Shown here one piece after another: positions 31,165 through 55,980 of a stretch of DNA of 64,000 bases. A program made the position numbers and the translations under genes. The stretch spans positions 1-64,000 of the forward strand of contig PBKW01000011.1 of NCBI GenBank assembly GCA_002721615.1. The letters are read 5' to 3'. Within the stretch, counting starts at the first letter, position 1. The number at the start of each line of letters is the position of its first letter. Source of the stretch: Chloroflexota bacterium (GTDB lineage Bacteria; Chloroflexota; Dehalococcoidia; Lucifugimonadales; Lucifugimonadaceae). The notes under the pieces were generated by a model, which made no database searches, was not told the origin of the DNA, and saw only the letters and a program-made list of their open reading frames with translations.

Positions 31165-31725
31165 TTAACCTTTTACCTTCCCTATCGGGGCTAATACTAT
31201 GGATAATGACCTTCCTTCCAGAGATGGGACTTTATCAACTATAGATATATCTTGTAATTCATCCGCTATTTTTTTTAACAAGTTAACTGCTAAATCTGGA
31301 TAAGCCATCTCTCTACCTCTAAAAAAAACTGCAATTCTGACTTTAAAACCAGAAGAAATGAAAGATCTAATTTTTTTCTGTTTTGCTTTCATATCATGAT
31401 CACCTATTCTCATTCTCAATCTTACATCCTTCATTAAAATTTTAGATTGAGATTTTTTCGCTTCTTTAGCTTTTTTAGATTGAATAAATTTAAATTTTCC
31501 ATAATCTAATATCCTACACACTGGTGGATTATGATTAGGAGCTACTTCAACCAAATCAAGACCTTGTTCTTCTGCCAATTTAATAGCATCTCTAACATCG
31601 AGTAACTGAGAGTCAGAATCTTTACGTCCAATAATTACCCTTACAGATTTAGACCTTATTTCTCTGTTAACTCTATATTTTTTTAAATTTTCTTTTTTAG
31701 GTCTGTAATTAGTAGATTTCTGCAA
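31165..31725 (-). CDS. infC: Translation initiation factor IF-3
   Basis: This is a 186-residue IF-3. The N domain has Y-R-V-N-R-E-I-R-S-K-S-V-R-V-I-I-G and the linker G-x-D-L-V-E-V-A-P-N; the C domain has K-D-V-R-L-R-M-R-I-G-D-H-D and V-F-F-R-G-R-E-M. IF-3 binds 30S subunits and rejects non-standard start codons. Its own start is TTG 31725, with an in-frame stop three codons upstream, which fits the common pattern of rare start codons in infC. A strong GGGAGGT lies about 35 nt upstream, too far to serve this start. Confidence 0.95.
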   Translation of the reverse strand: MQKSTNYRPKKENLKKYRVNREIRSKSVRVIIGRKDSDSQLLDVRDAIKLAEEQGLDLVEVAPNHNPPVCRILDYGKFKFIQSKKAKEAKKSQSKILMKDVRLRMRIGDHDMKAKQKKIRSFISSGFKVRIAVFFRGREMAYPDLAVNLLKKIADELQDISIVDKVPSLEGRSLSIVLAPIGKVKG

Positions 31726-31779
31726 ATTTAATTACCAACCTTATAAGTATATCTATTATTACCTCCCACAAATCGTGAA

Positions 31780-44330: not shown

Positions 44331-45578
44331 TTAATCAATTTTTTCAAATCCTGTATATTTCTGTAATACTTTAGGGACTAAAATTGAACCATCATCTTGA
44401 AGATTATTTTCTAATATTGCTATCAAAATTCTCGGAATCGCCAAAGCAGATCCATTCAAGGTATGAGGAAAAATTATTTCTCCTGCATTTTTATATCTAG
44501 TTCTTGTTCTTCTAGATTGAAAATCTGTACAAGTTGAGATGGATGAAACTTCTAACCAATCTTCAGAGCCTTGAGCCCAAACTTCTATATCTATAGTTTT
44601 AGCAGACTGAAATCCTAGATCACCAGTGCATAATTCCACAGATCTATATATTAGCCCTAGCTCATCACATAATAATTGAATCTCATTGACCATTTCATCA
44701 AAAGCATTTCGAGAACTTTCTGGTAATTCAAATCGAAATAATTCAACTTTTTCAAATTGATGTACTCTTTTTATCCCTCTAGTTTCTCTTCCTGCAGCAG
44801 CTTTTTCTCGTCTGAAACACTGAGAATGAGAGACAAATTTTAATGGTAATTCCTCTTTTATGATATCTCCAAAATATAGACTATTCAATGCAACCTCAGA
44901 GGTAGGAATTAACCAAAGATCTTCTTCAATATCTTTATAAAGTAGCTCAGAAAATTTCGGCAAATTTCCTGAGCCTACCATTACTTCTTCTTTAACTAAA
45001 AAAGGAGGGGCAATTTCAAGATATCCATTCTGATTATGTTTCTCCAACATCCATGCGACTAAGCTTCTCTGAAGAATTGCTCCTTTACCTTTTAAAACAT
45101 ACCATCTAGACCCAGCTAATTTTACTCCTTGCTCCATATCCAAAATCCCCAACTTAGGTGCTATGTCCCAATGAGGAATAGTTGTTTTAATATTTTTTAC
45201 ATCCTCTTTAGTGAAAATTACTTTATTATCAGTTTCGTCATTGCCATTTAGAACTTCTTCTAAAGGAACGTTTGGGATTACTAACATCAATCGATTTAAC
45301 TCGGATTCTATATCATCTAGTTTTGAATTAATATTATTTAATTTATCTGAGATCTCTCTCATTTTGTTGATATGCTCCAAAGATGGTTTTTCTTTAGACA
45401 CTCCTATTCTCTTATTTTCAGAATTACGAAAACTTCTTAATTGGTCAGATTTTTGAATTAAATCTTTCCTCTCAGAATCTAATTGTTTTATATCATCTAA
45501 AGGAATTACTTCACCTCTTGATTCTAATCTCTCTAATATATTTTCAGAATTTGAAATTAATTTATTTAAATCAATCAT
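44331..45578 (-). CDS. serS: Seryl-tRNA synthetase
   Basis: This is a 415-residue class II SerRS. The N-terminal long coiled-coil arm (about 30-110) reaches the tRNA-Ser variable arm, and the catalytic core follows with T-S-E-V-A-L-N-S-L-Y, motif 2 F-R-R-E-K-A-A-A-G-R-E-T-R-G and motif 3 N-G-S-A-L-A-I-P-R. It would charge the tRNA-Ser(UGA) found at 52.5 kb. Its ATG overlaps the lysS end by 8 nt, so serS depends on the lysS transcript. Confidence 0.97.
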   Translation of the reverse strand: MIDLNKLISNSENILERLESRGEVIPLDDIKQLDSERKDLIQKSDQLRSFRNSENKRIGVSKEKPSLEHINKMREISDKLNNINSKLDDIESELNRLMLVIPNVPLEEVLNGNDETDNKVIFTKEDVKNIKTTIPHWDIAPKLGILDMEQGVKLAGSRWYVLKGKGAILQRSLVAWMLEKHNQNGYLEIAPPFLVKEEVMVGSGNLPKFSELLYKDIEEDLWLIPTSEVALNSLYFGDIIKEELPLKFVSHSQCFRREKAAAGRETRGIKRVHQFEKVELFRFELPESSRNAFDEMVNEIQLLCDELGLIYRSVELCTGDLGFQSAKTIDIEVWAQGSEDWLEVSSISTCTDFQSRRTRTRYKNAGEIIFPHTLNGSALAIPRILIAILENNLQDDGSILVPKVLQKYTGFEKID

Positions 45579-47094
45579 CGTTTTTATTTTGTAAGGTTTT
45601 TAATTGAGGGAAAATTAACACATCTCTTATTGATTTAGCTCCAGAAATTATCATCGCTAATCGATCAATTCCTAATCCTAAACCTCCCGTGGGAGGCATA
45701 CCGTGTTCTATAGCTATCAAAAAATCTTCTTCTAGCCTATCTAATTCATCATCTCCAGATTCCTTGCGTAAATTTTCTTGATCTTCAAATCTTTTTCTTT
45801 GGTCAATAGGATCATTTAATTCAGTGAATGCATTAGCTAATTCTCCACCACAAACAAATGCCTCAAATCTTTCAACAATATTATCCTCACCTTCTTTCTT
45901 TTTTGCTAAAGGGGACATTTCCACAGGGTAATCTATAAGAAAACATGGTTGCCTCAAATTAGGTTCTACTGAATATGAAATTACTTTATCCAACATTCTG
46001 CCCCAATTTGACCCTTGTTCTACGTGAATTCCTCTAGATTTCATTTCTTTCTCTAATTCTTGAGGTGATCTACATTTAAGATAATCTATACCAGAATATT
46101 TTTTTATAGCATCTCTTAAATTCAATCTCTCCCAAGGAGGAGTTAGATCTATCACTTCATCACCAACATTTACTATTTTAGAACCATTCACATCCTCTGA
46201 AACATTAGCTACCATTTCTTCTACCATTTTCATTACATCATTATAATCAGAATAAGCTTCATAACTCTCTAAAGTTGTAAATTCAGGATTATGAAGATGG
46301 TCAATTCCTTCATTTCTGAAAATTCTTCCTAACTCAAACACTTTATCTATCCCAGCAACGATTAACTTTTTTAAATTCAATTCAGTAGCTATTCTAAGAT
46401 AGAGAACTCTATCCAAAGCATTATGTTTTGTTATAAATGGTTTAGCCATTGCTCCTGCTGCTACAGGAACTAATATTGGAGTTTCTACTTCTATAAAACT
46501 TTTTCTTTCCAAAAATTTTCTAATTGATGCAATAATTTTAGGTTTTACTAAAGCAACTTCTTTTGAAGAATCGTTAGAAATAAAATCTAAATAACGTTGT
46601 CTGTACCTTTTTTCAGTATCCTGCAATCCTGACCATTTATCTGGCAATGGCCTAATTGATTTACACAACACATCTATTTTCTTAGCTTCTATAGTAGGCT
46701 CTCCTCTTCTAGTACGAAAGACAACACCTTCAATTCCAACAAAATCTCCTATATCAATAAATTTTAAACTTTCAAAATGTTTATCACTTAATAAATCTGA
46801 TCTTAGAGCAATTTGTATAGATCCATCACCATCTTTTAAATCAACAAAAACAATTTTTCCTTGACCTCTGTAAGCTATTATCCTTCCAGCAACAATTACA
46901 GATTCTGTTTTAATATTCTCTCCTTGGAAATTTAACTCTAGGTCTTCTAGCATGTCTATAGCTTCAAGAGTGGAATGAGTTTTATGAAATTTAGAAGGAT
47001 AAGGATTTATACCTAAATTTCTAAGAGATTCTAAATTAGCTTTCCTAGCTTCAATTAATCTATTTTCATCTTGTTCAATATTATTATTTTTCAT
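45571..47094 (-). CDS. lysS: Lysyl-tRNA synthetase, class II
   Basis: This is a class IIb LysRS of 507 residues: an OB anticodon-binding domain (I-V-A-G-R-I-I-A-Y-R-G-Q-G-K-I), motif 1 (S-F-I-E-V-E-T-P-I-L), motif 2 (G-R-I-F-R-N-E-G-I-D-H-L-H-N-P-E-F-T) and motif 3 (G-G-L-G-L-G-I-D-R-L). It is first in a two-gene lysS-serS operon. A TTTACA/TATAAA pair upstream is its likely promoter. Confidence 0.97.
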   Translation of the reverse strand: MKNNNIEQDENRLIEARKANLESLRNLGINPYPSKFHKTHSTLEAIDMLEDLELNFQGENIKTESVIVAGRIIAYRGQGKIVFVDLKDGDGSIQIALRSDLLSDKHFESLKFIDIGDFVGIEGVVFRTRRGEPTIEAKKIDVLCKSIRPLPDKWSGLQDTEKRYRQRYLDFISNDSSKEVALVKPKIIASIRKFLERKSFIEVETPILVPVAAGAMAKPFITKHNALDRVLYLRIATELNLKKLIVAGIDKVFELGRIFRNEGIDHLHNPEFTTLESYEAYSDYNDVMKMVEEMVANVSEDVNGSKIVNVGDEVIDLTPPWERLNLRDAIKKYSGIDYLKCRSPQELEKEMKSRGIHVEQGSNWGRMLDKVISYSVEPNLRQPCFLIDYPVEMSPLAKKKEGEDNIVERFEAFVCGGELANAFTELNDPIDQRKRFEDQENLRKESGDDELDRLEEDFLIAIEHGMPPTGGLGLGIDRLAMIISGAKSIRDVLIFPQLKTLQNKNDD

Positions 47095-47170
47095 TTTTCT
47101 ATCTAAAAAACATTATTTATTTGTAAAACTAAATTAATTTTAAATATTTTATATTGAAATTTAATCTTTT

Positions 47171-47200
47171 TTTATACCTGAATTAATAAAAATCTGTAAA
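47171..47200 (-). promoter_or_regulatory. Promoter of lysS-serS
   Basis: On the minus strand TTTACA (47195-47200) and TATAAA (47171-47176) are 18 nt apart, with transcription expected near 47163 and a leader of about 70 nt. The surrounding 200-nt gap (47095-47294) is AT-rich and I see no other element except the degraded 5' end of rsmD at its right edge. Confidence 0.5.
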
Positions 47201-47294
47201 ATCGCTTAATTATTATATTGAAATACATATCAATTCACATAAATAATGTAACACAGTAATAACAAATAACTGGAAAAATATTCGAGTGTGAACA

Positions 47295-47810
47295 ATTTTT
47301 AAAAATAAAAATAAGTCCTTAAGGCCTACAACATCAAAAGTAAAATCAGCAATATTTTCTCTTATAGGCCCTGAAGGAGTGAAGAATCAAAAAATCCTCG
47401 ATTTATACGCAGGAACTGGAAATTTAGGCATTGAATGTCTTAATAGAGGAGCAAAATTCAGTGTATTTGTTGAAAAAAATATAAAAACCTTCAAAATGTT
47501 AAAAAAAAAGTTGGAAGAAAAACAATTTCAAAATTCTAGTAAAGTGTTTTGCCTAGATGCAATTAAAGCTGTAAAAAAAATAGAAGGCCCATTCGATATT
47601 ATATTTGCTGATCCTCCTTACAATTATAAAAATATATCTGAAGTATTAATCCTCGCAGAAAAAAATAATTTATTTCACGATCAATCTTTAATTTTTTATG
47701 AACATTCTAAAAATCAAAAACCCTTAAAAAATATAGGTAATCTTTCAAATATAAAATCAAAAAATTATGGTGATTCATCTATCACAATATTTAAATTAGA
47801 GGGGGTTTAA
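47295..47810 (+). CDS. rsmD: 16S rRNA (guanine-N2)-methyltransferase RsmD, abnormal 5' end
   Basis: The SAM-dependent methyltransferase that modifies G966 of 16S rRNA is recognised by R-P-T-T-S-K-V-K-S-A-I-F-S-L, the SAM motif D-L-Y-A-G-T-G-N-L-G-I-E and the catalytic A-D-P-P-Y. The conserved R-P-T-T block (from 47322) lies upstream of the first GTG in frame (47379), so the gene must extend further left. There no ATG, GTG or TTG exists before an in-frame TGA at 47289. ATT at 47295, with GAGTG 6 nt upstream, would give 171 residues lacking only about six expected residues. It may use a rare start or be slightly damaged. coaD follows directly, as is usual. Confidence 0.75.
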   Translation: MFKNKNKSLRPTTSKVKSAIFSLIGPEGVKNQKILDLYAGTGNLGIECLNRGAKFSVFVEKNIKTFKMLKKKLEEKQFQNSSKVFCLDAIKAVKKIEGPFDIIFADPPYNYKNISEVLILAEKNNLFHDQSLIFYEHSKNQKPLKNIGNLSNIKSKNYGDSSITIFKLEGV

Positions 47811-48299
47811 TTGGTAAAAGCTATTTTTCCAGGTACTTTTGATCCAATAACAAAAGGACATTTTGACATCATTCAACGAGGATCTCAAATATTCGATGAA
47901 ATTACAATTGGAGTTTATAAAGAATCTAATAAAAATTTAATGTTTGATACAAATGAAAGAATAGAACTTATAGAGGATTCTGTTAAAACAATATCTAATT
48001 CTAATGTAAAGATCATGCCTTATTCAGGTTTAACTGTAAAATTTGCTGAAAAGGTTGGAGCATCTGTAATTATTAGAGGATTAAGAATAGGTAATGACTT
48101 CGAATATGAAAGAGAAATGGCTCTGATGAATAGACAAATAAACCCTGATATAGAACTAGTATGCTTAATATCCAGCATTAATCATCAGTTTATAAGTTCA
48201 AGTAGAGTTAAAGAAATAAGTATGTTAGGAGGAGATGTAAGCAATCTAGTAACAGAAAAAGTCCAAAAATCAATTAATAAAAAACTAACAGATATTTAA
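47811..48299 (+). CDS. coaD: Phosphopantetheine adenylyltransferase
   Basis: CoaD makes dephospho-CoA, the fourth step of CoA synthesis. The 162-residue protein has F-P-G-T-F-D-P-I-T-K-G-H near residue 6, the R-G-L-R-I-G-N-D-F-E-Y-E block near 88 and I-S-S-S-R-V-K-E near 127. The start is TTG at 47811, immediately after the rsmD stop, with a GGGGG site about 6 nt upstream. rsmD-coaD is a common gene pair. Confidence 0.96.
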   Translation: MVKAIFPGTFDPITKGHFDIIQRGSQIFDEITIGVYKESNKNLMFDTNERIELIEDSVKTISNSNVKIMPYSGLTVKFAEKVGASVIIRGLRIGNDFEYEREMALMNRQINPDIELVCLISSINHQFISSSRVKEISMLGGDVSNLVTEKVQKSINKKLTDI

Positions 48300-53906: not shown

Positions 53907-54671
53907 ATGGATTTTACAAATAAAAGAGGAATAATATTTGGAGTAGCAAATTCTAGAAGTATCGCATGGACAATATCAAAATCTCTAAGCGAAAATGGAG
54001 CCAGTCTAGCTTTTACATATCAAAATGAAAGATTGAAAGCTCCAGTTTCTAAAGCAGTAAAAGATATGAACCCAATAGAATTGCTTGAATGTGATGCTTT
54101 AGATGAGAATCAAATAGAAGAAGTTTTTAAAAAAGTTTCTAAATCTGGACCTATTGATTTCGTTGTGCATAGTATCGCTTTTGCACAAAGAGAAGATCTC
54201 GGAGGAAATTTCTCTGAAACAAGCTTAGATGGTTTCAGAACTGCTCTTGAAGTAAGTGCCTATACATTAATCCCTATTGCAAAACACGCTGCTAATTATA
54301 TTAATAAGGATGGTGGGTCAATATTAACAATATCATTTGAAGCAGCAAATAAAGTTTACCCTGGATACAATATTATGGGGACTGCAAAAGCAGCATTAGA
54401 AAACTCTATGAAACAATTAGCTTATGAATATGGAGAGAAAAAAATTCGAGTGAATGCAGTTTCTGCAGGACCACTTCCTACTTTAGCTGCAAGAAGTATT
54501 CCTGGATTTAACGATATGAGAAATATTCATGCTAATAAATCTCCACTTAAAAGAAATATTACTCATGAAGAAGTAGCCAATACTTGTTTATTTCTATTAA
54601 GTAACCTTTCTACTGGTATAACAGGAGCTGTAATACCAGTAGATGCCGGATATGGAATAATGGGTTTATAA
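53907..54671 (+). CDS. fabI: Enoyl-ACP reductase (NADH), FabI
   Basis: This 254-residue short-chain dehydrogenase has I-I-F-G-V-A-N-S-R-S-I-A-W near residue 9, V-V-H-S-I-A-F-A near 90 and the FabI catalytic pair in Y-N-I-M-G-T-A-K-A-A-L-E (Y-x6-K). It reduces enoyl-ACP in the last step of each fatty-acid elongation cycle. It belongs functionally with fabD, acpP and accDA at 16-22 kb although it is 32 kb away. A GGAG site precedes the ATG. The MFS reading frame opens 1-2 nt after its stop. Confidence 0.95.
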   Translation: MDFTNKRGIIFGVANSRSIAWTISKSLSENGASLAFTYQNERLKAPVSKAVKDMNPIELLECDALDENQIEEVFKKVSKSGPIDFVVHSIAFAQREDLGGNFSETSLDGFRTALEVSAYTLIPIAKHAANYINKDGGSILTISFEAANKVYPGYNIMGTAKAALENSMKQLAYEYGEKKIRVNAVSAGPLPTLAARSIPGFNDMRNIHANKSPLKRNITHEEVANTCLFLLSNLSTGITGAVIPVDAGYGIMGL

Positions 54672-54672
54672 A

Positions 54673-55980
54673 ATCAAAACAACATTAAAAAAAGAATCAA
54701 ATAAAAATAATCAAAGATCGAGTATATTCTATGGTTGGTGGATAGTAGGCGCAGGATCAGCCATTCAAGGATATACATCTTTAGTCTTTTGGAGAGGATT
54801 TACAGCCTTTTTTGACCCCATTGTAGAAACTTTTGGATGGAGTAGAGGTGCAACTGCTGGAGCATTATCTTTACAAAGAACTGAAGGAGGAATGATATCT
54901 CCTTTTGTTGGTATTCTTCTAGAAAAATTTGGCCCTCGAAAGGTAATGTTTTTTGGTGTTTTTGTGACAGGCTTAAGTTTTATTCTTATGAGTAAAATTA
55001 CAACATTATGGCATTTTTATGCCACTATAAGCTTGTTAACAATAGGTATGTCTTTTGGCACTTTTATAGTTTTAGTAGCTACTGTTGGAGATTGGTTCAA
55101 TCGTAAAAGAAAATTAGCATTATCTATTCTCATGTCAGCTTCAGGAGCAGGAGGATTTGCTGTTCCATTATTAGTTACATCGATAGAAAATTTTGGTTGG
55201 CGAGATGTGATTTTTGGAGTAGGAATTGGTTTCTGGTTAATAGGTTTTATCTCTGCTTCATTTATGAGACATCATCCTGAACAGTATGGTCTCTCTCCAG
55301 ATGGAAATAAATTAATTGATGACAAAAATGAAGATCCCAAAATATTAAGAAATAAAAATGAATTTTCAGTAAAAAAAATATTAAAAACAAGGTTTTTTTG
55401 GCAATTCTCTTTAGTTTTAGCTTTTGCTCAACTTGTAACATCAACAAATTTATTGCATATGCCTGCATTAACAAATTTCGGAGTGTCGATTTATGTAGCA
55501 GGATTATCTATAGCCGGTTTAGCTCTTGGAGATTTAGTTGGAAGATTATCTATAGGAGTAATAGGGGAAAAAATTTCTTCAAAAAAAATGATGATCTTAT
55601 CTTTCTCTTTATTAACAATTGGAGCATTTTCGCTTGCTTTAGTTAATTTTCAAATTGGGAATCTTGTATTCGATAGTAAGTATCTTGTACCTACTTTTGC
55701 ATTATGTTGGGGTTTAGGATTCGGATCATCAATTCCTTTAAGATTAGCTATATTAGGAGATTATTTTGGAAGAAAAAATTATGGAACTATTGTTGGGCTC
55801 ACCAGTACAATTGGTGCTATATTTAGTGCTATTGGTCCAATTTTTGCAGGTTTAGCTTTTGACTTCACTGGAAGCTACAGGTTTGCATTCTTCTTTTTAG
55901 GTATAACCATATTTCTTGCACTTCCACTAATTTTCTCCCTTCAAAGTATTGAAACTGTAAAAAAAATTCTTAGAGATTGA
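54673..55980 (+). CDS. MFS transporter with no canonical start codon
   Basis: This MFS carrier has about 12 membrane helices, including the first-half G-x-L-x-D/E-x-x-G-x-R-like G-I-L-L-E-K-F-G-P-R-K and a central cytoplasmic loop near residue 225. The first ATG in frame (54892) would delete helix 1, whose sequence F-Y-G-W-W-I-V-G-A-G is plainly encoded upstream from about 54730. The frame is open from 54661, but it contains no ATG, GTG or TTG before 54892. I extend the gene to ATC 54673, 2 nt after the fabI stop (435 residues). Oxalate/monocarboxylate-type substrates are plausible, and uptake of the acid used by the dehydratase is a guess. Confidence 0.75.
   Translation: MKTTLKKESNKNNQRSSIFYGWWIVGAGSAIQGYTSLVFWRGFTAFFDPIVETFGWSRGATAGALSLQRTEGGMISPFVGILLEKFGPRKVMFFGVFVTGLSFILMSKITTLWHFYATISLLTIGMSFGTFIVLVATVGDWFNRKRKLALSILMSASGAGGFAVPLLVTSIENFGWRDVIFGVGIGFWLIGFISASFMRHHPEQYGLSPDGNKLIDDKNEDPKILRNKNEFSVKKILKTRFFWQFSLVLAFAQLVTSTNLLHMPALTNFGVSIYVAGLSIAGLALGDLVGRLSIGVIGEKISSKKMMILSFSLLTIGAFSLALVNFQIGNLVFDSKYLVPTFALCWGLGFGSSIPLRLAILGDYFGRKNYGTIVGLTSTIGAIFSAIGPIFAGLAFDFTGSYRFAFFFLGITIFLALPLIFSLQSIETVKKILRD

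Follow-up and report, generated by a model that had tools for sequence, protein, structure and literature searches.

A probable AUU start codon for rsmD in an uncultured Dehalococcoidia bacterium, with candidate AUH starts in other core genes

The rsmD frame and its probable start codon

The rsmD gene of the window (the whole 64,000-nucleotide stretch of DNA analysed, from the 1.46-Mb, 30% GC genome of an uncultured Dehalococcoidia bacterium, G000) appears to be intact, and its translation most likely initiates at the AUU codon at position 47295, giving (M)FKNKNKSLRPTTSK. The coding sequence read from this ATT to a TAA stop (47295-47810, plus strand) encodes 171 residues that match TIGR00095 and PF03602. 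The frame runs ATT (47280) CGA GTG TGA (47289) ACA ATT (47295) TTT AAA AAT AAA AAT AAG TCC TTA (47319) AGG (47322) CCT ACA ACA. A comparison with G007, the nearest relative compared, which is a different species and the one close relative in the rsmD comparison, reveals that both the in-frame TGA closing the frame upstream (47289-47291, plus strand) and the proposed ATT start codon (47295-47297, plus strand) are retained in the aligned DNA, again with no usable ATG, GTG or TTG. An AUU start, which the first-pass annotation had listed as one of several options, is favored because of this conservation without a usable canonical codon and because the same pattern recurs in other genes of the genome.

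The positions given earlier for the TGA, the ATT, the GAGTG motif and the conserved RPTT block from 47322 all hold in the sequence, as does the lack of a usable start codon: no in-frame ATG, GTG or TTG is present in rsmD between the TGA at 47289 and a GTG at 47379, which falls within the conserved part of RsmD. As the first canonical codon, this GTG causes a mechanical ORF list to shorten rsmD to 143 residues. It was rejected as an internal start since the codon is GTT in G007 and hence not shared; a GTG in SKVK, which occurs in G007 only, was rejected likewise.

From the TGA to the conserved block, ATT 47295 is the sole near-cognate start codon with any Shine-Dalgarno (SD)-like match upstream. 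This match, GAGTG (47284-47288, plus strand), lies at the 6-nt gap from the ATT that had been annotated, but it is weak, with only GAG matching the anti-SD sequence, and it reads GAGCG in G007. The 3' end of the 16S rRNA is ordinary (GGATCACCTCCTTTT). The weak SD is the main soft spot of the AUU reading; the SD is strong at the candidate AUH starts of holB, folP, recF and smpB. If initiation occurs at 47295, the initiator tRNA would read the AUU to give a 171-residue RsmD that lacks the N-terminal R-I/V-x-G-G segment; the yield would be low, and the initiation rate may depend on IF3, as at other non-canonical starts.

A promoter-like TTGAAA-18-AATAAT (47218-47247, plus strand) is a consensus match only, which would leave a leader of approximately 40 nt, and matches of this kind are no commoner than expected from shuffles. 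No Rfam match to a regulatory RNA is found in 47050-47450, and the conservation of the 95 bp upstream of rsmD is ordinary, at rank 39 of 143 genes. The gene for phosphopantetheine adenylyltransferase, coaD (47811-48299, plus strand; TTG start; PF01467, 1.4e-20), adjoins the 3' end of rsmD, and the divergent neighbor is a lysS-like lysyl-tRNA synthetase gene (45571-47094, minus strand), assigned from its ORF and sequence without a family search.

Comparison with relatives and the shortened RsmD

The RsmD proteins of the window and G007 are 92% identical. In the four codons just upstream of the ATT, from CGA to ACA, three change meaning in G007, one of them to a stop, whereas from ATT 47295 onward the first ~60 codons differ silently only. 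Amino-acid constraint in rsmD begins at the proposed start. The extra stop is an in-frame TGA in place of the CGA of the window, which turns "I-R-V" into "I-*-A". The first-pass annotation raised a sequencing error and a recent nonsense mutation, either of which would place the true N-terminus upstream of the TGA, at I-R-V. Both are rejected, unless the two assemblies contain a common error, as G007 shares the TGA and the absence of an ATG, adds the second TGA and carries other residues there. The resemblance of I-R-V to an RsmD N-terminus, all that speaks for this explanation, is a coincidence; I-R-V lies too close to LRPT, and its residues are not conserved. Reassignment of TGA, which the first-pass annotation had considered unlikely, was rejected as well, since in G007 the RsmD frame does not extend upstream of the shared TGA.

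Scoring covered 51 rsmD sequences. In 48 of them a canonical start codon lies after the upstream stop and before RPT, and only those of G000, G007 and G025 lack one. Judged by these alignments, with matching anatomy in G007 and canonical starts in the 48 others, the missing rsmD start is neither chance nor error. The rsmD of G025 (L003, minus strand) is a separate case, in which AAAGGAG precedes the in-frame codons TTA GTA GTT and no ATG, GTG or TTG is present.

More distant members of the genus (G002, G003, G004 and G005) can start rsmD at MRPTTSK, with an ATG eight codons downstream of ATT 47295, which counts against the AUU reading; their ATG is downstream of the TGA, not upstream, where the first-pass annotation had looked for an ordinary ATG as a refutation. 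The ATG is aligned with TTA 47319 (47319-47321, plus strand), which makes this TTA the most obvious candidate if the window gene starts at some other non-standard codon. Such a start has a low probability, as the TTA has no SD upstream, the seven codons preceding it are identical in the window and G007, and UUA is not a start codon in any bacterial table.

In another route, ribosomes would begin at GTG 47288 of the -1 frame (GTG AAC AAT TTT TAA, 47288-47302, plus strand) and, on reaching the UAA, slip +1 (TTT to TTT) to enter the rsmD frame. Both the GTG and the TTTTT-AAAAA run are retained in G007, and prfB of this genome uses a +1 slip at a stop. However, this route requires two rare events and has neither a clear SD nor a stimulator, its second codon changes meaning in G007 (AAC to ACC), and rsmD in the relatives has no comparable slip site, which together make it improbable. 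The likeness to prfB, with its programmed +1 frameshift in RF2, lies in an rsmD frame without a start codon of its own; prfB here keeps CTT-TGA, whereas rsmD has a slip site but no conserved shift site of that type, no stimulator and an unconserved second codon.

It is also unlikely that rsmD is decaying or untranslated, the start codon having been lost before the window and G007 species split. The missing normal start would fit such a loss, as would the dispensability of RsmD in E. coli, where the protein is not essential. Yet the 92% protein identity, the mostly silent changes, the intact SAM and DPPY motifs and the lack, in both species, of stops or shifts within the gene argue against decay.

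By profile and motif, the product is a genuine RsmD. Its TIGR00095 score of 136.8 bits exceeds the cut-off of 117.5, the PF03602 match is 8.7e-42, and the SAM-binding DLYAGTGNLGIE and FADPPY motifs read from the sequence are intact; it thus has in common with TIGR00095 RsmD (16S rRNA G966 N2-methyltransferase) the methyltransferase domain, the DPPY motif and an above-cut-off score. The TIGR00095 alignment opens at profile position 28, so that the protein is ~20-25 residues shorter at its N-terminus than a typical RsmD. The R-I/V-x-G-G segment is absent from the window RsmD and from the other genus members read, and it is found in 10 of the 51 sequences scored; with the catalytic domain intact without it, the protein is a shortened family member. 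Loss of R-I-x-G-G in the genus is seen at rsmD loci L014, L016, L020 and L071, and rph is similarly shortened in genus relatives, where it begins MRPIKITP (loci L285-L288). Because the genus relatives can start at MRPTTSK, a short N-terminus is normal for the genus, and what is peculiar to the window rsmD is the missing canonical codon.

Start codons of other genes in the genome and the order

After contigs had been joined, G000 and the greater part of G007 were screened for coding frames in which a usable canonical start is missing. The screen recovered prfB with its CTT-TGA frameshift site, which serves as a positive control and was set aside as an RF2 frameshift. Three ATT-start cases are clear in both genomes: holB (CTGGAGGTTTAA-ATT-AGTTCTTGG, with GGAGG upstream), recF (GGAGATAAAA-ATT in G000 and GGAGATTTAAA-ATT in G007, with GGAG upstream) and folP (GAGGTGAAAT-ATT, with GAGGTG upstream). 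In smpB and rph, too, a usable canonical start is probably missing and ATT stands in its place; no copy of either was present among the G007 contigs searched, and they were aligned with other relatives. In smpB the context is GAGGTAACAA-ATT-ACTACTAATCG, with ATG at the same codon in G001-G004, G008 and G009, and in rph ACA-ATT-AGA-GAA corresponds to ACT-ATG-AGA-AAA in G014 and G024.

Several candidates were rejected, namely adk (GTG start, indel), a minus-strand gene on contig C11 (which has a TTG), dnaE (TTG start), and hisB and rplC (ATG starts). Start codons were also estimated by free EM, but noise made the result unusable, with AAA, AGT and AAC raised beside the true starts. Additionally, an MFS transporter gene of the window (54661-55980) has a stop-to-stop frame with no ATG, GTG or TTG in its first 77 codons; its possible start is an ATC (ATT in G007) just past the stop of the preceding gene, with no clear SD. 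Further candidate start-less frames belong to a larB-like gene, a GatA-like gene and an amidase gene. In an ABC transporter ATPase gene (G000 contig C6; L079, position 6878 onward), the sequence GGAGG-AATT-CTG-AGT-AAG with no canonical codon nearby suggests a CTG start.

The candidate AUH starts of holB and recF extend beyond the two species. For holB (G000, contig C10, 110914-111981; loci L194-L200), all seven genus genomes with a copy have ATT or ATC behind GGAGG. In six of them this codon follows GGAGG by 4-6 nt and no ATG, GTG or TTG is present nearby; the copy in G003 has ATT too, plus an ATG 16 codons upstream. Across 30 genomes of the order, the codon at the aligned start position of recF (G000, contig C10, 105107-106294, minus strand; loci L254-L283) is ATT, ATC or ATA in 26 and ATG, GTG or TTG in the other four. 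GC-rich genomes are included, with ATC, and an SD-like sequence usually lies upstream. A stop within five codons upstream of the start position excludes an upstream start in 14 of the 26 AUH genomes, and in G016 (TAA-ATT) and G022 (TAA-ATC) the stop abuts the start codon; where the open frame extends far upstream, the reading covered 20 codons, and an upstream start is possible. The position holds only ATH or NTG, and the preceding codon varies freely, even to stops. As far as the aligned codons tell, this position behaves as a start codon does.

For infC (window 31165-31731, minus strand; relatives' loci L094-L113), 14 of the 18 relatives read have no canonical codon near the start and carry ATA there (ATT in G044), often behind an SD-like sequence. 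The start in G000 and G007 is TTG, and the rare-codon start therefore seems to have been lost in the window lineage.

Relation to known non-canonical starts

Worked examples of non-canonical starts include the AUU of infC in E. coli and, in Streptomyces, the AUC of infC and the GUC of sigR, and such starts are repressed by IF3 (PMC5472188). The rsmD gene adds a probable case to the known AUH starts such as infC. Like infC, which encodes IF3 and starts with AUU in E. coli and AUC in Streptomyces, it belongs to the core genes, and its probable AUH start, with no usable ATG, GTG or TTG, is conserved in a relative. One difference is that autoregulation by the gene's own product is documented for infC; infC of the window species has TTG where relatives have ATA. 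As with the GTC start of Streptomyces sigR, the proposed rsmD start is conserved between species and was missed by annotation, but sigR has a strong SD (AGGAGGTG) and its repression by IF3 was tested (PMC5472188), whereas the SD at rsmD is weak.

Gene callers restricted to ATG, GTG and TTG shorten or lose such genes in these genomes. The candidate AUH starts of recF, order-wide, and of holB, genus-wide, are a more interesting lead than rsmD itself; no report of recF with AUH starts was found in the open-access literature, where the search, which did not extend to subscription journals, returned mitochondrial genome papers only. One tentative possibility, to which we give limited credence, is that the AUH starts in core genes of the order (infC and recF order-wide, holB in the genus and others by lineage) constitute an IF3-linked translational control, and that the window lineage, in which infC has changed from AUA to UUG, has spread AUU starts to more genes, rsmD among them. 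The tie between the infC change and these AUU starts is a conjecture that rests on two species. The retention of AUU, AUC or AUA in recF across both AT-rich and GC-rich genomes suggests selection for a weak start, which opens the idea that a repair gene is controlled through IF3 to direct testing.
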